Shown: piece by piece, positions 5,331 through 30,734 of the stretch
Layout of the letters: each line of letters starts with the position of its first letter
Numbering within the stretch: position 1 is the stretch's first letter
IMG/VR virus record: IMGVR_UViG_3300024257_000018
Coordinates: 1 to 46,769 of that record
Length of the DNA: 46,769 bases
Source of the DNA: a virus
Reading direction: 5' to 3' (one strand)
Notes under the pieces: generated by a model
What the model was told of the DNA's origin: nothing
What the model saw: only the letters and a program-made list of their open reading frames with translations
Database searches by the model: none
Position numbers and translations under genes: made by a program

Positions 5331-6422
5331 CTACGGTACCGGCGAACCGGTGTTGAGCGCGAAGTCTTCGACCGCCACCTCGCCCGCCGGTTCCTCGATG
5401 ACCTCACCGGTTTCCGGGTCGAGCACGGACTCGACCGTCTCGTCACCGCTATCGTCTACCGTTTCGGCCGGCGTGTGGCTGAGCGCTGCGAGGCCCTCGG
5501 CGGGTTGGGCCGGCTTCTTCTTCGCTTTCTTGGCCTTGGTCGTCTTGCCCTTGGTCGCCCTGGTGGTGACGGTCTCGGTGTCGAAGACGCCGTCCACGGT
5601 CTCAGTACCGGCGCGCAACCGCTCGGCCAGGCCACGCAGGTTCAGGAGGTCGCTCACGGTCCACTTGGAATGATCCGCACCGATGTAGTCTTCGATCTGC
5701 TCGATCGTCACCTTGATCTTGCTGGTGTAGTACTGGATCGCGTCGTCGGCGGCTTCGGTCAGGGTGACGGTGTACCGGTTGCCGTTATCATCCGTACGGA
5801 TCAGGATCTCGGCCGAAGCCACAGCCTTGGCGGCGTCGAATGCCGCACTGACGTACCACTCCGGCAGCACGTGTTGGAGCGCGGTACGCTTCGCCTTGCT
5901 GATGCCGGACTGCATCTGCATCGTCCGCCAGCGCTGTGCTTGATCTTGCTTCTTCGCGAACTTGGCCGGCGGCGGCGCCACGGTGAAAACGAACGGGCGG
6001 CGATCGAACGTCATGGTGACCAAGTCCGCGACGGCGATCGAGAGTTCGACATCGTTGCCAGCAAAGCCCTTCACGTCGATTCGCGTGGACAGGCAGCCCC
6101 ACTCCCCTGCGAGCGCTTCGATCAGGTTGACGGTGGGGCCTTCGATGCGTGACCCACCCTGACCCCATGCGTAGAACGCCTTGGAGTCGCCCTTTGAGTT
6201 GAACTTCGACCCGATCTGTTGCCCGATCTGTTTCGCCCGTTCGGTCAACCGGCCATGCTCCCGGTCCCGCCCCATGGACTGGGCGATGCGGACCATGGTC
6301 TCCAACTCGGAGAGCTGGGCGTCGGTCTCGTCCGGGTCAGCAACCTTGAAGTTGACGGCGTCGGGCTCCGTTGCTGCCGGCTTCGGGTCTTGGTTCCAGT
6401 CTTCCTGATACGGTGTGCTCAT
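5331..6422 (-). CDS. Phage replication/recombination-associated protein, 363 aa
   Basis: It resembles a family of conserved phage and mobile-element proteins that carry the signature GGSRIEGPTVNLIEAL followed by WGC (here about residues 90-110). Such genes usually sit in recombination modules next to exonucleases or annealing proteins, and a role in single-strand annealing or DNA binding is inferred, not shown. Lys/Ala-rich (about 295-310) and acidic C-terminal segments look disordered. The start at 6422 has AAGGA upstream and is preceded by operator promoter H. Confidence 0.65.
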   Translation of the reverse strand: MSTPYQEDWNQDPKPAATEPDAVNFKVADPDETDAQLSELETMVRIAQSMGRDREHGRLTERAKQIGQQIGSKFNSKGDSKAFYAWGQGGSRIEGPTVNLIEALAGEWGCLSTRIDVKGFAGNDVELSIAVADLVTMTFDRRPFVFTVAPPPAKFAKKQDQAQRWRTMQMQSGISKAKRTALQHVLPEWYVSAAFDAAKAVASAEILIRTDDNGNRYTVTLTEAADDAIQYYTSKIKVTIEQIEDYIGADHSKWTVSDLLNLRGLAERLRAGTETVDGVFDTETVTTRATKGKTTKAKKAKKKPAQPAEGLAALSHTPAETVDDSGDETVESVLDPETGEVIEEPAGEVAVEDFALNTGSPVP

Positions 6423-7058: not shown

Positions 7059-10000
7059 TCAAAGCAGCGCTTGCTGCTTGTGGTTGCGCTCGATGCTCAT
7101 GTCTGCGTTGATGGCCGCTTGGCGGAAGTATTCGGCCTTCAACTCGACACCGAGGCCGAACCGGCCCTGTTCGATCGCAACGTAGATTTCCGACCCGATG
7201 CCAGCGAACGGCGTGAACACCGTCTCACCTGGATTGGTCCAGAGCCGCACACACCGTCGAATCACCTCCAACTGGAGCGGACAGATGTGCTTTTCGTCGG
7301 CTTCGGCGCGGCCACCCTGCCATCCTTGGATCACGTCGGTTTCTCGGATGTCGCCCCATACTCCAGACGCCCACTCGATCCATTCCTCGTTGGAGACGTC
7401 GTTGTGGACCCGTACCGCCTGTTTGCCGGGTTTGCGGAACTCCAACACGTAGTCATTGAGCGCGGGGCTCGATTCCAACGAGTCCCGCTTGAACTGCGAG
7501 AACTGGAGCCTCTCGCTTTTGGTGCGGATGGCGGCGGCCTGTGGGTTCTTGGGCACCACGAACTCGCCGTAGTAGTGGAATCCGGCATCGCTCATGCGGT
7601 TGACGACGAGCCCGCGGAAGTCACGGAGGCCCTTCCTGCCGTGCTTGTTACGAAACGCTACGAGCTGCGCCAGATGCAGGCAAACCACCCGCCCCGGCCG
7701 CATGACCCGAAGTAATGCATCGCAGAAGTGAGCGAAGTGAATCGAGAACTCGGCGTCTGACCCTTCCGTACAATTGCCCATGTCTTCGGGCTCGCTCGAG
7801 TACGTGAACAGCGACGAGAACGGCGGCGAAAACACGGCCAGGTCTACCGAGTCCGGTTCCATCGTGTCGCGCATGATCGCGATACTGTCCCCGTGCATGA
7901 TGCGGTAGTGGTCTGGATTCTCCACGTCCGCCAACCGCTCCGATGTCGTGGTCACGATGTCAGGCATTGTCTCTCCCTTCTGGTAGCATTCGAGTTCGGT
8001 TTGGAGCGCGCCGGCGAAGATGCGCTCGTGTTCGCTGGCGACGCGGTCCCATTCATCGCCTTTCGCAGCCAGTACGTCGATGATGCGCTGTTCGTCCGGT
8101 GAAACCATCATGTGGACGTCCAGACACCCTACGCGTCCCTGTCGGTGGGCACGCCGTACCGCCTGGTGATAGGCCTCGTAGCTCTCATCGTAGGCGGCAA
8201 AGACCATCCGTTCGGCACGTTGGAGGTTGACACCGTGCCCGATGACCTTCGGTTTCGCCACGATGCAGTCAATGCCCCCCGCCTGGAACGCCGCCACGAT
8301 GGCCACCCGTTCGACGTCCGGCGTCCGGCCCGCAATCTGGGCAACGCTGATACCGGCATCACGGATGGCACGCTCGCACGCGTCGGCATGGGCATTGTAG
8401 TTCGCCCATACGATGCAGTGCCCCTTGCGAGCAACATCCACAACCCGAGACATGCGCTCAGTGCTGGAGTAGACGTCGCGTCGGACTGCTGCCCGGTTGC
8501 TCATGGTCATCCCGGCGAGAGGGGCACCAAACAAGTCGCGGTCTACGTCGACGGATGACTGCTGTTCGATGTCCTCGATGGACACCCGGTAGTCATTGGG
8601 AGGCAACGCGTCGCACGGCATACCGTAGACTGACGGGTCTCGCATCCAGAGCGCGAACCGCGACAACCACTGCGGGAGTTCGTGGACGGCATGTTTCTTG
8701 ACCCGCCAGTCTTTGCCGTCGCGGACGAAGAACCGAGACCGAAACTCGGCGTCAGACCGAACGTACCCGAGCCATGTGGCATGAGTGGCGTACTCGGTCG
8801 GGTCGTTGGGGGCCGGGGTAGCTGACAGTGCCAGCCGGTTGTCGACGGTCTGCACGGCGCTGGCAAGGTGCCGCGCGATGGCCCCGTCGCCGCTCTTGAG
8901 GATGCTGGAGTTGTGGACGAGTAGGCCGTTTACGCTGAAAGACGGATGCCGTGTCGCCTCAATGTCGTGGAAATGGAGCTTTCCGTCGGGCGTCCTGAAT
9001 CGTTCCAAGTCAGGATGTCCCAGTTCCAGAATCTCAACACCGTCCACCCGAGCCCAGTCAGCGCCAGATCCTTCTTCTCGTCCAGCGTTTTCCTGCTCCT
9101 GTGCGAGTGCCCGTCTACTTCGATACCTACCATTTTCCCGACGTGTGCTAGGTCCAGTTTGTAGTGGGTCGGATACCCGGCACGCCTCCGACCGAGAGAA
9201 ACCGGGTGTTCCGACTCCCACTCGTTCCCGAGCGCTTCCAATAGGATGCGTTGCGGTTCGGTCATCCCGCGTCCGTTCCCGCCCTGCACTGGTGGTCTGT
9301 GCCCCTTTGCGAGTAGCGTTCGCGAGATCTTCTTTCTTACGGCCGGATCCTTCGTCGGGTTGAGCTTTCGAATCCGCTCCAACTCCATCTCGGCCTTCGG
9401 ATTCCCAGAACGCAACCATGCGCGCCTTTTCTGCCCACGCTTCGCAGCCACTGCCGGTGAATGCACCCGAACCAGATTTTCCGGCTGATGCATCCTCCAT
9501 TTCGCGGAGCAGGACTTCCCGCAGAATCGTGTAGGGGCGTCGGATGGGTGCCAAGCCTTCGGGGCGAAAACCTTCTTGCACCAGCCGCATTCCCTCGGCT
9601 GTTGCCATGACACAATCGCCGGATTGTAGGTTGCGTGCCCGGACCCATCCCCGTTTGGTGAAATACGGATGATTCGCGCTACTGAAAATCCGCTGTCCAT
9701 CGACTTTGATTCGGATGACACGGTTGACCTCTCGGCTGTGTGTGGCGCGGACGGTGTCAACGCCGGTGACGTTCAAGACCTGGTCCCCAGGTCTCACGTC
9801 TTCAATATGCACCCTTCGCACGTGACCGTCAACCATGCAGTCCACAGGCGTCCCTGGAGCGAAACACTCATCTAGAACGAACGCCGACAACCCAGTCAAG
9901 TCGCGCTGCCTGACAAAGGCGTGGTGCGACACGAGCGCGATTCCGTTCGGGTCGTCGAGCCACGCGGACACGTCCCCGGTGCGCACGTGCTGGACGGTCA

Positions 10001-10358
10001 TCATCGGGAAGAACTTCGCGACCTCGTTCTCGAACTCGTGGATGGCCACGAGCGGGGCGCAGACCATGGCGGGTCCGCCGTCGCGCATGTGTTCGGCCCA
10101 TGCCAGGCTGATCGACGTCTTGCCAAGCCCACATTCCAAGAACAGCGCGGCCCGGCGTCTGGCCACGGCGAAGACAACGGAGAACCGCTGATAGTCGTGG
10201 AGATGCGGTGCGAGTTCGTCTATCTGTTTGGCCGCGACATCGGTGGCGGGTTGCCAGTCTGGCACAATAGCAAAGTCGCCGTCGTATGTCACTCCGGGAG
10301 TGTTCTTGATGCGCAGGAACGCGGCGTAGTCTTGCCGCACGTTGATACGGGTTGGCAT
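7059..10358 (-). CDS. SNF2-type helicase-DNA methyltransferase fusion containing an intein, 1099 aa precursor
   Basis: The N-terminal helicase has motif I ECGLGKTS (75-82) and motif II VLDE (161-164), which is split by the intein. After the intein come SATPAP (motif III) and QAVRRAHRQGR (motif VI). A DNA methyltransferase domain follows from about residue 798: motif IV SPPF (844-847), then a C-terminal motif I-like FAGIGSE, the order typical of N4/N6-amino methyltransferases. Removing the 319-residue intein leaves about 780 aa. The ATG at 10358 has AGGT upstream; a longer GTG-initiated frame runs through the 58-aa gene and is rejected. Confidence 0.88.
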   Translation of the reverse strand: MPTRINVRQDYAAFLRIKNTPGVTYDGDFAIVPDWQPATDVAAKQIDELAPHLHDYQRFSVVFAVARRRAALFLECGLGKTSISLAWAEHMRDGGPAMVCAPLVAIHEFENEVAKFFPMMTVQHVRTGDVSAWLDDPNGIALVSHHAFVRQRDLTGLSAFVLDECFAPGTPVDCMVDGHVRRVHIEDVRPGDQVLNVTGVDTVRATHSREVNRVIRIKVDGQRIFSSANHPYFTKRGWVRARNLQSGDCVMATAEGMRLVQEGFRPEGLAPIRRPYTILREVLLREMEDASAGKSGSGAFTGSGCEAWAEKARMVAFWESEGRDGVGADSKAQPDEGSGRKKEDLANATRKGAQTTSAGRERTRDDRTATHPIGSARERVGVGTPGFSRSEACRVSDPLQTGPSTRRENGRYRSRRALAQEQENAGREEGSGADWARVDGVEILELGHPDLERFRTPDGKLHFHDIEATRHPSFSVNGLLVHNSSILKSGDGAIARHLASAVQTVDNRLALSATPAPNDPTEYATHATWLGYVRSDAEFRSRFFVRDGKDWRVKKHAVHELPQWLSRFALWMRDPSVYGMPCDALPPNDYRVSIEDIEQQSSVDVDRDLFGAPLAGMTMSNRAAVRRDVYSSTERMSRVVDVARKGHCIVWANYNAHADACERAIRDAGISVAQIAGRTPDVERVAIVAAFQAGGIDCIVAKPKVIGHGVNLQRAERMVFAAYDESYEAYHQAVRRAHRQGRVGCLDVHMMVSPDEQRIIDVLAAKGDEWDRVASEHERIFAGALQTELECYQKGETMPDIVTTTSERLADVENPDHYRIMHGDSIAIMRDTMEPDSVDLAVFSPPFSSLFTYSSEPEDMGNCTEGSDAEFSIHFAHFCDALLRVMRPGRVVCLHLAQLVAFRNKHGRKGLRDFRGLVVNRMSDAGFHYYGEFVVPKNPQAAAIRTKSERLQFSQFKRDSLESSPALNDYVLEFRKPGKQAVRVHNDVSNEEWIEWASGVWGDIRETDVIQGWQGGRAEADEKHICPLQLEVIRRCVRLWTNPGETVFTPFAGIGSEIYVAIEQGRFGLGVELKAEYFRQAAINADMSIERNHKQQALL
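7965..7977 (-). promoter_or_regulatory. Internal ribosome binding site for a free methyltransferase
   Basis: In frame within the fusion gene, GGGAGAG (7977-7971) lies 3 bases before an ATG (7967-7965) exactly at the helicase/methyltransferase boundary. Initiation here would yield a separate 302-aa methyltransferase (7059-7967) in addition to the fusion. Whether it is used is not known. Confidence 0.5.
8910..9866 (-). other. Intein (319 aa) in the helicase DE box
   Basis: The inserted protein begins with Cys in CFAPGTPV (block A), directly after the DE of helicase motif II. It has block B SSANHPYF (intein residues 62-69) and ends LLVHN with Ser as the +1 residue. Removing it restores DE-SS-ILKSGDG, a normal motif II context. 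The roughly 200 residues between the splicing blocks are charged, Arg/Gly/Glu-rich and structureless-looking, because this DNA is also read in another frame for an endonuclease. Confidence 0.88.
8930..9700 (-). CDS. Vsr-like (EDxHD) homing endonuclease nested out of frame inside the intein, 256 aa
   Basis: The frame is +1 relative to the host gene. The N-terminal zinc finger has C38, C41, C60 and C64 in the ECGWCKKVF ... FCGKSCSAKWR pattern common in homing endonucleases. The C-terminal nuclease core has YKLDLAH (D183), IEVDGHSH (E194, D196, H200), a DEKKDLAL helix and GWTVLRFWN, matching the Vsr/EDxHD fold. The start is uncertain: the ATG at 9700 is the first ATG but lacks a clear ribosome binding site, and an upstream TTG (9760) is possible. 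Confidence 0.82.
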   Translation of the reverse strand: MDSGFSVARIIRISPNGDGSGHATYNPAIVSWQQPRECGWCKKVFAPKAWHPSDAPTRFCGKSCSAKWRMHQPENLVRVHSPAVAAKRGQKRRAWLRSGNPKAEMELERIRKLNPTKDPAVRKKISRTLLAKGHRPPVQGGNGRGMTEPQRILLEALGNEWESEHPVSLGRRRAGYPTHYKLDLAHVGKMVGIEVDGHSHRSRKTLDEKKDLALTGLGWTVLRFWNWDILTWNDSGRPTESSISTTLRRHGIRLSA

Positions 10359-10362
10359 ATCG

Positions 10363-10539
10363 CTACCTGATGCGTGTGAATGTGGCAAACGGCTGAGCGC
10401 CACCGCCGAAGTCGAACGACTCTCCGACACCGAGCGAACGGACCAACTCACAGAACTCGTCGTCGCATTCGTTTGCATCGGTCCATTCTGCAACTGAACC
10501 GTCACATGTCTCGCCGTCTTCGTATTCTCGTCGAATCAT
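10363..10539 (-). CDS. Small acidic protein, 58 aa
   Basis: The ATG at 10539 has GGAGG seven bases upstream and is the first gene after promoter C. The product is acidic and Cys-containing (MIRREYEDGETCDG ... NECDDEFCELV), with a GGGAQPF turn. It ends four bases before the helicase fusion starts, so the two are co-translated. No family recognised. Confidence 0.68.
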   Translation of the reverse strand: MIRREYEDGETCDGSVAEWTDANECDDEFCELVRSLGVGESFDFGGGAQPFATFTRIR

Positions 10540-23031: not shown

Positions 23032-23850
23032 TCACAAAAGCGTGACGGACTCGCCATTGACCTCCGGCCTCTGAGTCCACGTCCGCCCATCCAGCACCGC
23101 CAGTTCACCGCCGCGCTTGGCTTTCTCGGTCACGCCGCGGCCACCGTGCTGCTTGAAGAAGAACGGGACGCCGGCACGAAGGCACGCATCGCGCAGCTCG
23201 CGGAACCAGTCGACTTGAGCCGGCCGTGCTTTGAATCCCGACTCACCACCCGTGACCAGATGAGAAATCCCCTTTCCGTTGAGGTGTTGGGCGAACTCGT
23301 CGACGGCTTGGTGACGCGGGACATGCGGATTGAGGAGCGACCCGAGCAGCGGCTCGGCGCTGACCATGCGGGTTGTGCTGTCGTCACCGACGCAACCGAG
23401 GAGGTTGAGCCGGTATCGGTATCGGATGGACTCGACGGTCACGCCAGGAATCACGTTCTGTGGCCACCGCCCAAAGCGCTTCACGACCATTTCGGAGATC
23501 TCGGGCCATCGCTCCGCACGCTTCGTCAGCACTTGGTACTCGTGCCATGGCGCACGAACCGCCATGGTATCGAAGACGTCCATGATGAAGTCGTCTGGTG
23601 CGTCCTTGTGGAGCAGATCGCTCATGCTGTTGACGAAGATACGCGCCGGCTTCTTGTTGCTGACCGGGCCGCGAATCTTGTCGGCGTGGATCGTGAACTT
23701 GAAGCCGTTCGTGTAGCGCTTGCTGCCCATGGCGTGGAGGCGCTTGGAGAGCGCTTTCGAGTAACAATTGGCGCATCCGTTGCTGATCGGGTCACAACCA
23801 GTAGAAGGATTCCACGTGCGGTCGGTCCAGGCGATGCTTGTCTTGTTCAT
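23032..23850 (-). CDS. DUF5131 / phage Gp37-Gp68 family protein, 272 aa
   Basis: The start MNKTSIAWTDRTWNPSTGC and the cysteines C19, C26 and C29 (GCxNCY) are characteristic of the phage Gp37/Gp68 (DUF5131) family, which resembles radical SAM proteins. Further blocks RIFVNSMSDL, WHEYQVLTKR, PGVTVE and VTGGESG support this. The usual genomic partner TcmP is not adjacent. AAGGA precedes the ATG at 23850. Biochemical function not established. Confidence 0.82.
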   Translation of the reverse strand: MNKTSIAWTDRTWNPSTGCDPISNGCANCYSKALSKRLHAMGSKRYTNGFKFTIHADKIRGPVSNKKPARIFVNSMSDLLHKDAPDDFIMDVFDTMAVRAPWHEYQVLTKRAERWPEISEMVVKRFGRWPQNVIPGVTVESIRYRYRLNLLGCVGDDSTTRMVSAEPLLGSLLNPHVPRHQAVDEFAQHLNGKGISHLVTGGESGFKARPAQVDWFRELRDACLRAGVPFFFKQHGGRGVTEKAKRGGELAVLDGRTWTQRPEVNGESVTLL

Positions 23851-25183: not shown

Positions 25184-26119
25184 TTAGGCAGCCAGCGCGT
25201 CCACGTCGCTGCCGGCCGCATCGGTCAGGTACTCGGCTGCGAGCCTGGCCTTGCTTGCGGCGGTGAAGATCGCCTTCGGCTGCTCACGGAGATGGCCAGC
25301 CCAGTGGACGAGATACGCCTCGTTCTCGGGGTGGAGTTCGTTGCGGATGCCCAAGTCGCAGCACAGGAACGAGCTGGTCAACTCGGCGACAAGCTCCTCC
25401 ATCGCCCGGTCGAGGTCGCGGTCACAGCGTTCGGGCTTCTTCGTCCAGTGCCCCAGTTCATGCAGGCATGCGGACCAGTACGAGTCGGGCGTATGGAACC
25501 GGGTCGCTGGCGGGAGCTGGATCCGATCCTCGCCGGGGATGTACCAGGCGCCGGCTGCATCATGCGTGATCTCGGCACCGGTAGCATCCACGAAGTCCTG
25601 CGCGTTGTTGTAGGTTTCGCGCGGGTCCTCGGCCAGCACTTCGAGGTCGGCAAGCGGTCGTTCCTTGCCCGGTGCCCAGTTGATCTGCTCGTGGTTGAAC
25701 ACCGTGTAGACCTTCAGCATCATGAACGACTTCAGGGTCTCGGTGCCGTCGTCGTCGCGGTCGCGTTTGGTCATCTTCTTCCAGAACGTGATCTTGGTGC
25801 CCTTCTGACCCTTGCGGACGCCGAGGCCGCTCGGTGCGTCACCATTGCCGGCCCACTTCCATCCACGCCCGGCCTTCTCGAAGCCGTTGATCTTCTGAAC
25901 CTGCCCGAACGTGTACCAGCGCGGGTCGGCGTAGCTTGCAATCCAGGTCAGCCACACGTTCATGCCGCGGTACTCGTGGCCGCTGGAGCCGTTGTGTGGG
26001 GTGCCGACCGCGTTCCACGGACGGACCCACGGCGGCGCCTCGCGCTTGCCGGTAAGGACCTCGTCGATGGCGGTAGCGACCCGGTTGGCGATCTCAGTGT
26101 AGTGGTCTTGCTTCTTCAT
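25184..26119 (-). CDS. ArdC-like antirestriction protein (ssDNA-binding plus metalloprotease-type domain), 311 aa
   Basis: The N-terminal domain (1-150) matches the ArdC/DUF1738 type (PPWVRPW, YRGMNVWLTW, GQVQKINGF, GVRKGQKG). The C-terminal domain is a zincin with HELGH (220-224) and a downstream EELVAEL helix supplying a third ligand (E246). ArdC proteins from conjugative plasmids and phages protect incoming DNA from host restriction. It follows the 67-aa gene by 4 bases under promoter F. Confidence 0.88.
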   Translation of the reverse strand: MKKQDHYTEIANRVATAIDEVLTGKREAPPWVRPWNAVGTPHNGSSGHEYRGMNVWLTWIASYADPRWYTFGQVQKINGFEKAGRGWKWAGNGDAPSGLGVRKGQKGTKITFWKKMTKRDRDDDGTETLKSFMMLKVYTVFNHEQINWAPGKERPLADLEVLAEDPRETYNNAQDFVDATGAEITHDAAGAWYIPGEDRIQLPPATRFHTPDSYWSACLHELGHWTKKPERCDRDLDRAMEELVAELTSSFLCCDLGIRNELHPENEAYLVHWAGHLREQPKAIFTAASKARLAAEYLTDAAGSDVDALAA

Positions 26120-26123
26120 TGGT

Positions 26124-26327
26124 CTACAGATCCAGCATGTCGGAGATTGCGTCGAGGACATCCTCGGTGTCAGGCATCGCGCAGCGGTTCTCCTGCCCGA
26201 AGATGCTGACGAACATCTGGATGGTGTGGCGCAGGTTGCAGACGTTGCCGAGTTGTCTTGCCGCCGCGATTTCGTCGTTGCTCATCTGGCCGATGACTTC
26301 GCTTGCGAGTTCGTAGGTGGTTTCCAT
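26124..26327 (-). CDS. Small helical protein, 67 aa
   Basis: GGAGG precedes the ATG at 26327, just downstream of promoter F. The product consists of short acidic helices (YELASEVIGQMSNDEIAAARQL ending in VLDAISDMLDL). It is co-transcribed with the ArdC-like gene, so it may assist antirestriction (inference). Confidence 0.66.
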   Translation of the reverse strand: METTYELASEVIGQMSNDEIAAARQLGNVCNLRHTIQMFVSIFGQENRCAMPDTEDVLDAISDMLDL

Positions 26328-29559: not shown

Positions 29560-30300
29560 ATGAGGCTATCGCAGGTTGTGGCGTTGGAAGCTGACGCCAA
29601 GAAGCGAACACACGGTGAGGTCACCGCCATTCACAAGGCCATGCAGAAGGGCGAGTTGTACGCCGGAAGCGTGGAAGTGTACGAGCCAGCCTCGGACACA
29701 GATGAAGCCCTGCCGGCCAAGAGGGTAAGGGTTCGGATGGTGGCCGGTGACGCCCTTCAGGACATTACCGATGCGTGGGCTAAGTTGGGTGGCCTCACCT
29801 TGTCCAAGGAACTGGGCAACTGCAATGAGGCCGCCATGGCCCCGGTCACGGTGTCAGACACCATGACCACCATGCCGCTGCCGGTTCCGGCGTTGCTGTT
29901 CCTGGAAAAGCAGTTCACCGACATGAGGCGCGCCATCGACGTGGTGCCAACCCTGGACGAGGCGGACGAGTGGGCCTGGGATGAGGATCTCGGTTACCAC
30001 CGTACGGCGCATCAGGTAACGACCCGCAAGACCGCCAAAAGGACGCGCGCAATCGTGCTTCACAAGCCGACCAAGGAGCACCCGGCGCAAACCCAGCTCA
30101 TCAGCGAAGATGTGACCGTCGGGTGGTGGCGTGGCACCAAGTTCAGCGGCGCCATGACCCGCAAGGACAAGAAGGCCATGCTGGCCCGCTGCGACGAAAT
30201 GATCGCTGCGATCAAGAAGGCCCGAGACGACGCCAACCGCGCTCGCGTGGATGAGGTGGACGTTGTTGGACCGCTATTCGATTACGTGCTCGGCAAGTAG
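29560..30300 (+). CDS. DUF7873-like conserved phage protein, 246 aa
   Basis: AGGAGG precedes the ATG at 29560. The opening MRLSQVVALEADAKKRTHGEVTAIHKAMQK, shown in pieces as MRLSQVVALE and AIHKAMQKGELY, plus LLFLEKQFTDMRRAID, a PTLDEADEW segment, KEHPAQTQLI and GWWRGTKFSGAM match a family I recall as DUF7873, common in actinophages and plasmids. Function unknown. It sits between the terminase and tRNA regions. Confidence 0.76.
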   Translation: MRLSQVVALEADAKKRTHGEVTAIHKAMQKGELYAGSVEVYEPASDTDEALPAKRVRVRMVAGDALQDITDAWAKLGGLTLSKELGNCNEAAMAPVTVSDTMTTMPLPVPALLFLEKQFTDMRRAIDVVPTLDEADEWAWDEDLGYHRTAHQVTTRKTAKRTRAIVLHKPTKEHPAQTQLISEDVTVGWWRGTKFSGAMTRKDKKAMLARCDEMIAAIKKARDDANRARVDEVDVVGPLFDYVLGK

Positions 30301-30380
30301 CCGGGAACGGATCTCCAACTGAGGTAGACTGAGATTCAGGCTTAGGATCAAACTGACCTATGGGAACACGGTACGCTATT

Positions 30381-30442
30381 GCAGGTTCGAATCCTGCCCG
30401 CTCCAAGAGTGGAGCGGTGGCGGAACGGTATACGCACGACGC
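30381..30442 (+). tRNA. Circularly permuted tRNA candidate 1 (Leu-like, class II)
   Basis: The 3' half comes first: T arm GCAGG-TTCGAAT-CCTGC (30381-30397), acceptor CCGCTCC (30398-30404), A73, then AGAGT. The 5' half follows: acceptor GGAGCGG (30411-30417, perfect 7-bp match), TG, and a Leu-type D arm GCGGAACGGTATACGC (30420-30435). The next bases (30438-30454) can form an anticodon arm with one A.C mismatch and loop CTTGACA. The joining point, the variable arm and thus the anticodon could not be settled. One model joins GCGTA (30461-30465) with TACGC (30372-30376) as variable stem. No CCA is encoded. Confidence 0.5.
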
Positions 30443-30471
30443 CTTGACAGCATCGGTTCCGCGTATCGTCC

Positions 30472-30514
30472 CCTTAGCTTTTACCCTCAGATGCTCAGTA
30501 TTAAAAAGGCTAGG
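30472..30514 (+). other. Hairpin between the two tRNA candidates
   Basis: CCTTAGCTTTT (30472-30482) pairs with AAAAGGCTAGG (30504-30514) with one bulge and one G.U pair, around a 21-base loop. It may separate or help process the two tRNA units. Confidence 0.4.
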
Positions 30515-30538
30515 TTGTCTCTGCATGAAAGCACCTTA

Positions 30539-30619
30539 CGGCTGCGTCGTGGGTTCAAATCCCACCCCTCACCCCACATATGTGAGGGTAGCTCAGTGGA
30601 CAGAGCGGGCCGTTTCAAC
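30539..30619 (+). tRNA. Circularly permuted tRNA candidate 2 (class I, split in the anticodon loop)
   Basis: 3' half: anticodon-stem strand CGGCT (30539-30543), variable loop GCGTC, T arm GTGGG-TTCAAAT-CCCAC (30549-30565), acceptor CCCTCAC (30566-30572), C73 and encoded CCA (30574-30576). After CATAT comes the 5' half: acceptor GTGAGGG (30582-30588, perfect match), TA, D arm GCTC..GAGC (30591-30606), G26, anticodon strand GGCCG (30608-30612, pairs with CGGCT). The standard T8, A14, G18, G19, A21, C48, T54, T55, C56 and A58 are all present. Joining TTTCAA to A would give a UCA anticodon, but the junction is not known. Confidence 0.62.
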
Positions 30620-30655
30620 CGGATGCGAGTAAGCGTGTGTCAGTCAAGCCTTTAC

Positions 30656-30699
30656 AAGGGCGGGGAGCCCATCAATGGAACCGATGTTTCCCCGCCCTT
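30656..30699 (+). terminator. Strong hairpin downstream of the tRNA locus
   Basis: AAGGGCGGGGA (30656-30666) and TCCCCGCCCTT (30689-30699) form an 11-bp perfect stem with a 22-base loop. There is no U-run. It may end the tRNA transcript or protect its 3' side. Confidence 0.5.
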
Positions 30700-30734
30700 C
30701 CAAACATTCCACGTCGTCCGAAACGGTGGGTACG

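Follow-up and report, generated by a model that had tools for sequence, protein, structure and literature searches.

A tandem pair of permuted tRNA-like elements in a viral genome, probably divergent Y-RNA-like tRNA mimics

Introduction

The RNAs that partner Ro60 proteins are called Y RNAs. In Salmonella, the operon-encoded YrlA has a domain resembling tRNA (PMC7790460), phages have been reported as carriers of YrlA (PMC7765460), and what is said here of Y RNA function is based on these two papers and PMC8058203, together with general knowledge. Other RNAs with a rearranged tRNA-like order are the permuted tmRNAs, which are processed into two co-functioning pieces (PMC10085705), and the products of permuted tRNA genes, including examples from an archaeon that combine an encoded CCA with a very short intervening sequence (PMC3978253). 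The literature that was searched describes permuted tRNA genes for algae and archaea only, and none for bacteria or phages.

Architecture of the two elements

The stretch analyzed here, referred to as the window, is the whole 46,769 nt of the IMG/VR virus record IMGVR_UViG_3300024257_000018. Two tRNA-like elements fill a 374 nt non-coding gap (30301–30674) between the gene for a DUF7873 protein and the next reading frame. In element 2 (30539–30612), a perfect T arm and the 3' strand of the acceptor come shortly ahead of the matching 5' strand of the acceptor and the D arm, and its sister, element 1 (30381–30435), has the same permuted layout, with a T arm that starts 168 bases upstream of that of element 2. 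Their features are as follows, with the basis of each in parentheses.

Element 1
30370–30376, + strand: GGTACGC, 5' strand of a basal or variable-arm-like stem, pairing with GCGTATC at 30461–30467 (MFE fold)
30381–30397, + strand: T arm, GCAGG-TTCGAAT-CCTGC (sequence; scan)
30398–30417, + strand: acceptor-like hairpin, CCGCTCC-AAGAGT-GGAGCGG (sequence; scan)
30420–30435, + strand: D arm, GCG-GAACGGTATA-CGC (sequence)
30437–30455, + strand: anticodon-arm-like hairpin, CGACGC-CUUGACA-GCAUCG (sequence; MFE fold)
30461–30467, + strand: GCGTATC, 3' strand of the basal or variable-arm-like stem (MFE fold)

Element 2
30505–30538, + strand: 5' strand of the basal stem, from AAAGGCT (30505–30511) to CACCTTA (30532–30538) (MFE fold)
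30539–30543, + strand: CGGCT, 3' strand of the anticodon-stem-like helix, pairing with GGCCG at 30608–30612 (read in sequence)
30544–30548, + strand: GCGTC (read in sequence)
30549–30565, + strand: T arm, GTGGG/TTCAAAT/CCCAC (sequence; pattern scan)
30566–30588, + strand: acceptor-like hairpin, CCCTCAC-CCCACATAT-GTGAGGG, 7/7 pairs (sequence; scan)
30566–30572, + strand: CCCTCAC, acceptor 3' strand (sequence)
30573 and 30574–30576, + strand: C73 and CCA, both inside the loop CCCACATAT (sequence)
30577–30581, + strand: CATAT, 5-base spacer (sequence)
30582–30588, + strand: GTGAGGG, acceptor 5' strand, followed by TA (sequence)
30591–30606, + strand: D arm, GCTC/AGTGGACA/GAGC (sequence; scan)
30608–30612, + strand: GGCCG, preceded by G26 (sequence)
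30608–30629, + strand: GGCCG followed by TTTCAACCGGATGCGAG, holding an anticodon-arm-like CCG-UUUCAAC-CGG (sequence)
30630–30653, + strand: 3' strand of the basal stem, from TAAGCGTG (30630–30637) to AGCCTTT (30647–30653) (MFE fold)
30656–30699, + strand: GC-rich hairpin after element 2, AAGGGCGGGGA ... TTTCCCCGCCCTT, a possible terminator without a T run (MFE fold)

The stems of element 2 are complete (acceptor 7/7, D 4/4, T 5/5, and an anticodon stem of 5/5 that includes one G.U). A first-pass annotation of this DNA had described two permuted tRNA genes here, and both the architecture with its pairings and the presence of two such elements were confirmed by direct reading and by a strict pattern (T stem of five Watson-Crick pairs, TTCRANN loop, acceptor of 7/7 Watson-Crick pairs, D arm). 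The module is not random: the pattern matched at only two places in the window, with T arms from 30381 and 30549, and at none in 200 dinucleotide shuffles, both strands being scanned. The strand sequences in that annotation also agree with ours, except for an acceptor strand written as GGAGTG, which should read GTGAGGG. Pairing between positions 27–31 (GGCCG) and 39–43 (CGGCT) is 5/5, for which we estimate a chance of about 0.7% (the fifth power of 6/16, the share of base pairs that is allowed), and this is compatible both with a permuted tRNA and with the helix that closes the tRNA-like module of YrlA; in the Rfam YrlA alignment, CGGCT/GGCCG is the equivalent of the 4 bp helix in that position. 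In element 1, position 73 is A, the D arm is Leu-like, the anticodon-like loop reads UGA (Ser) and CCA is missing; nor do its two halves form an anticodon stem between them. The acceptor loops are short, at 6 nt (element 1) and 9 nt (element 2).

The flanking pairs reported earlier for element 2 are present, i.e., CTTA (30535–30538) with TAAG (30630–30633) and CAC (30532–30534) with GTG (30635–30637), with one bulged C. A basal stem occurs in both MFE folds, its pairing being not or barely beyond that of shuffled sequences, a test that several accepted Y RNAs also fail. As evidence, the wider flanks count for less: 20% of shuffles pair as well as the 60 nt flanks of element 2 and 5% as well as those of element 1, whose pairing beats 95% of shuffles. 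Folding z-scores were -3.3 for 30500–30705, a stretch that covers element 2 and includes the terminator-like hairpin, and -1.95 for the element 1 region. In the MFE folds, the ends of both RNAs exit in the variable region. Homology between the flanks of the two elements was considered and dropped since their likeness stays at chance level (matched by 38% and 50% of shuffles). A search of 2.9 million viral contigs for relatives of the window flanks gave chance matches and one identical contig, and a search through the neighboring proteins returned the identical contig (3300024259_000145) only.

ARAGORN predicted no tRNA genes and no tmRNA in the window, and Rfam gave no matches at gathering score across its whole length. 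A scan for sigma-70 promoters and T-run terminators found none, and an intrinsic-terminator scan gave no match to the hairpin at 30656–30699. The DUF7873 gene occupies 29560–30300 (Pfam PF25283, E 4e-66); relatives of its product are encoded within the tRNA arrays of Gordonia phage GodonK and Arthrobacter phage Mimi, so that it is perhaps a marker of tRNA loci. Elsewhere, the window encodes a 1148 aa helicase/DNA methylase fusion with a HINT/intein-like insert (7059–10505, minus strand; PT-HINT, Intein_splicing), an ArdC-like anti-restriction protein (25184–26161) and a DUF5131 protein (23032–23850), the last two also on the minus strand.

Comparison with Y RNAs

A scan of bacterial genomes with a tight version of the pattern returned Y RNAs, five of them above the Rfam threshold for YrlA (RF02553). 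These above-threshold RNAs (71.6–91.7 bits) carry the same module and come from Neisseria, Pseudomonas and Lysobacter contigs, in two of which they are in tandem. All six of the actinobacterial genomes tested, each with permuted-module RNAs, encode TROVE/Ro60. Two flank motifs are common to elements of Streptomyces or other actinobacteria and to viral ones: GCGCAGGYGACGGATACTTC (L057) and GGTTATC (L016, L025, L185). The Ro60-like protein of L503 has a relative in 353 GenBank phages, and among the matches listed most are annotated as 'Ro-like RNA binding protein' and belong mainly to phages of Mycobacterium, Streptomyces, Gordonia and Microbacterium. Six of the seven phages inspected have 1–3 copies of the permuted module upstream of the Ro gene, within about 3 kb, while in the seventh, Sixama, the module (L521:5899–6009, 79 bits) lies downstream. 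The GenBank stretches inspected (L516–L522) list none of these modules among their features. The first-pass annotation knew of no precedent for the layout in a bacterial virus; these elements beside Ro60-type genes of named actinophages, among them phages of Microbacterium, Gordonia and Mycobacterium, have the same order, which is therefore not new in such viruses.

Since YrlA and the Ro60-linked phage elements share the permuted order, the order alone does not imply circularization. Most Ro60-linked phage elements have an acceptor hairpin loop of 4–9 nt, and one of them (L522, T arm at 2238) carries ACCA in the loop, at the same place as in element 2, so the encoded CCA is not diagnostic. As these elements also have perfect stems and NCCA, neither feature is evidence for a tRNA that needs maturation.

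The first lead to this family came from a lax Rfam search of 1.3 kb around the elements, in which the best match of element 2 was YrlA (28.3 bits, E 0.0012), ahead of tRNA (21.2 bits, sub-threshold, overlapping the element at 30582–30656). Element 1 scored 20.6 bits against YrlA, and neither reaches the gathering score of 69. Like YrlA, the window elements follow the plan T arm, hairpin-closed acceptor-like stem and D arm, with a closing helix that resembles an anticodon stem and flanks that may pair into a basal stem, and like many YrlA RNAs they are in tandem. Unlike YrlA, they have no match to the conserved basal part of the model (positions 1–22 and 86–114; the alignment of element 2 covers positions 23–85 of 114) and no accompanying Ro60 gene. 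A search of the record, which is possibly incomplete, found no Ro60/TROVE, and tblastn with three phage Ro proteins gave a best E of 0.075.

A home-made model, R1, was built from 30 Y-RNA-like elements of Ro60-linked phages and actinobacteria, leaving out one Magritte element (L522) that scores 40 bits. Most Ro60-linked elements score 66–83 bits under R1, and the window gave 43.9 and 25.0 bits at elements 2 and 1, with a next best value of 8.1. Ordinary tandem tRNA junctions in a Micromonospora array (L430) reach up to 42 bits, so the scores of the window reflect the tRNA-like module alone. The elements of the actinophages A3Wally, FuzzBuster, Cashline, Sparky, LinStu, Magritte and Sixama resemble those of the window in occurring in high-GC tailed phages, in the permuted module, in short acceptor loops, in sometimes having NCCA and in being present in 1–3 copies. 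Most of them, however, have UUAYC beside the inner stem and a Ro60-like gene, and the window has neither; UUAUC/UACUUC, conserved at this place in Ro60-linked RNAs, is absent from both window elements, and the alignment of element 2 has a 16 nt gap there. The plan is shared with the Ro60-linked RNAs of bacteria and phages, and the tandem arrangement, the composition (61% GC) and the rank of the two elements as top hits of R1 likewise favor membership. The scores, the motif and Ro60 speak against it, and the pair is accordingly called Y-RNA-like in plan and is not assigned to the family.

Permuted elements in other viruses

IMG/VR was scanned twice by pattern for a T loop with a D arm close behind it, and most of the returns were ordinary tandem tRNAs. 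Among 812 adjacent pairs of a 3' end and a 5' end, 19 have acceptor strands that can pair with each other over the swap, whereas shuffled pairings gave 1.5 ± 1.2, with a maximum of 7 in 1000 shuffles. Permuted elements were found in about 20 viral contigs besides the window, which is therefore not a freak. In three viral records (L016, L025 and L057), a TROVE/Ro60 gene lies close to the permuted element. The idea that all permuted viral elements are permuted tRNA genes was given up, at least for the Ro60-linked ones, after the bacterial scan and the Ro60 search.

Several viral elements from records without TROVE show a recognizable anticodon, and their anticodon stem is closed only by joining the halves, at positions 28/29; those read by hand are Ile GAU (L225), Lys UUU (L015) and Arg UCU (L077), with a base 73 that is often wrong for the identity. 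Two flank families occur among the viral elements. In the first (L077, L086, L118, L225, L008, L063, L178/L355 and L363), a shared stem and then NNCAGCAA precede the permuted element, and downstream come an A-rich stretch together with the complementary strand and G; no TROVE gene was found in the records of this L077-type (CAGCAA) family, and some contain an RNA ligase. The second (L015, L100 and L091) has a stem and TGCTTATTTC upstream and AGC and a stem downstream, and belongs to tRNA-rich phages in which no TROVE was detected. In L118 (2747–2872), a tRNA in ordinary order has an insert in the anticodon region with the same stem and CAGCAA, while L236 (minus strand, 5711 and 9244) has ordinary-order tRNAs with anticodon-region inserts that contain ACAACA, in one case after a closed hairpin; the element at 5711 has an anticodon stem of 5/5 across positions 28/29. 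These inserts may represent an intron in phage tRNAs or, alternatively, a Y RNA arranged in the order of a tRNA.

Competing explanations

We consider it probable that the window elements are a divergent, Y-RNA-like pair of tRNA mimics: two tandem small non-coding RNAs in permuted order, of the YrlA-type plan, which would be used unjoined. This is the best explanation, with a probability of roughly 0.55. Given that the swapped layout is shared with Y RNAs that imitate tRNAs, look-alikes are more likely than tRNA genes that are cut and rejoined.

The first-pass annotation had instead read a tRNA gene whose ends are joined. In such a gene, pairing of the flanks would let the precursor circularize within the anticodon loop, and RNase P together with 3' processing would then open the circle at the acceptor, as happens in red and green algae. 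Element 2 lends itself to this, as all four stems can form, the anticodon stem is 5/5 at the right positions, CCA is encoded and the flanks pair beside the join; the archaeal cases with encoded CCA offer a parallel, and RNA ligases do occur in some phages with permuted elements. Against it stand the details of the product. All joins of element 2 were enumerated by hand, with UUUCAAC on the 5' side and ...CACCUUA on the 3' side. Joining after 31 or 32 gives A33, joining after 33–36 gives U37, and only joins after 37 or 38 produce normal loops (U33, R37), of the form UUUCAA(A/C), with the anticodon UCA, a reader of UGA, and yet TGA is the commonest stop codon in the phage (9 of the 17 genes checked). 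C73 marks tRNA-His, a tRNA that requires G-1 as well. Element 2 has T before G1, and thus no G-1, and it has no GUG anticodon. With anticodon and identity mismatched in both elements, neither is a coherent tRNA. Scoring the rotated sequence as a tRNA, as had been suggested, is useless as a test when done with ARAGORN, which accepts dozens of arbitrary joins in either element, with many anticodons.

The permuted genes of Cyanidioschyzon, other algae and Thermofilum resemble the window elements in their swapped halves, short intervening sequence and pairable flanks, but they use a bulge-helix-bulge and a splicing endonuclease and yield coherent tRNAs (PMC3978253), whereas the window elements are incoherent in anticodon and identity and have no known joining enzyme. 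RtcB, RNA_lig_T4_1 and RNA_ligase families had no match in the record, and element 1 lacks an anticodon stem between its halves. To our knowledge, a tRNA-splicing endonuclease is not to be expected in a bacterial host. Circularization is unsupported, and we regard it as improbable that this bacterial virus carries in element 2, and perhaps also in element 1, a genuine permuted tRNA gene that some activity circularizes; if true, it would be the first case of permuted tRNA maturation in the bacterial world. Some probability is kept for it since, for the viral elements from records without TROVE, a Y RNA with another partner and a phage tRNA splicing system are not separable by sequence, and it is a possibility that Ro60-less phage elements, such as the CAGCAA ones, whose motif is found in unpermuted tRNAs too, there with a stem closed by a loop, represent a tRNA splicing system of their own.

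Decay of a phage tRNA array could leave the same order, if the outer halves of tandem, near-identical tRNAs were lost and a 3' half followed by a 5' half persisted with no present function. The DUF7873 relatives inside the arrays of GodonK and Mimi fit such an origin, as does the His-like acceptor of element 2 (C73, CCA). Element 2 also has a repeated 39–48 segment: where the two cover the same positions of a tRNA, its 5' part CGGATGCGAG is similar to its 3' part CGGCTGCGTC, like the overlap that a tandem duplication would leave. Neutral relics should have lost pairs, though, and the perfect T, D and acceptor stems kept in two independent elements argue against simple decay; the recurrence of the layout in many phages (19 against 1.5 expected) also tells against a relic, which we judge unlikely.

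A further option is a tRNA or tRNA-like RNA in two pieces, conceivable by analogy with permuted tmRNA, in which RNase P and 3' processing would remove the acceptor loop and the basal stem would hold the pieces together with no ligation. The window elements share with permuted tmRNA (RF04321) a permuted acceptor domain with a removable loop, NCCA directly precedes the loop in element 2, and the ends exit in the variable region, a place that could tolerate an extended arm. They differ from it in having no tag reading frame and in scoring 14.1 bits against a gathering score of 47. Moreover, the loops of 6 and 9 nt are short, element 1 lacks CCA, the ribosome would hardly accommodate a long stem next to the anticodon arm, and Ro60-linked RNAs built to this plan are described as tRNA mimics that remain intact, all of which makes a two-piece RNA very unlikely. 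A permuted group I intron was rejected, the flanks being too short and Rfam giving no match.

Proposed function and significance

If the pair are tRNA mimics, the locus would comprise two RNA genes, at 30345–30470 and 30505–30655, each encoding a T arm, a hairpin-closed acceptor stem and a D arm set on a stem formed by its own 5' and 3' flanks. The RNA would be used as transcribed, with no cutting or rejoining, and its T and D loops would dock into a tRNA-like elbow. The basal stem may be held by a partner protein, either Ro60/Rsr or another RNA-binding protein; a Ro60/Rsr of the host is proposed because the phage record has none. During infection, the RNA could then serve to decoy, gate or tether tRNA-acting enzymes.

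Many permuted modules lie in records without a detected Ro60 gene, which raises the question of which protein or process they serve. Permuted tRNA mimics are far commoner in phage genomes than annotation suggests, and the present locus carries a warning for their interpretation: since Y RNAs have the same order, the permuted order of a tRNA-like gene in a phage should not on its own be taken as evidence of a permuted tRNA.
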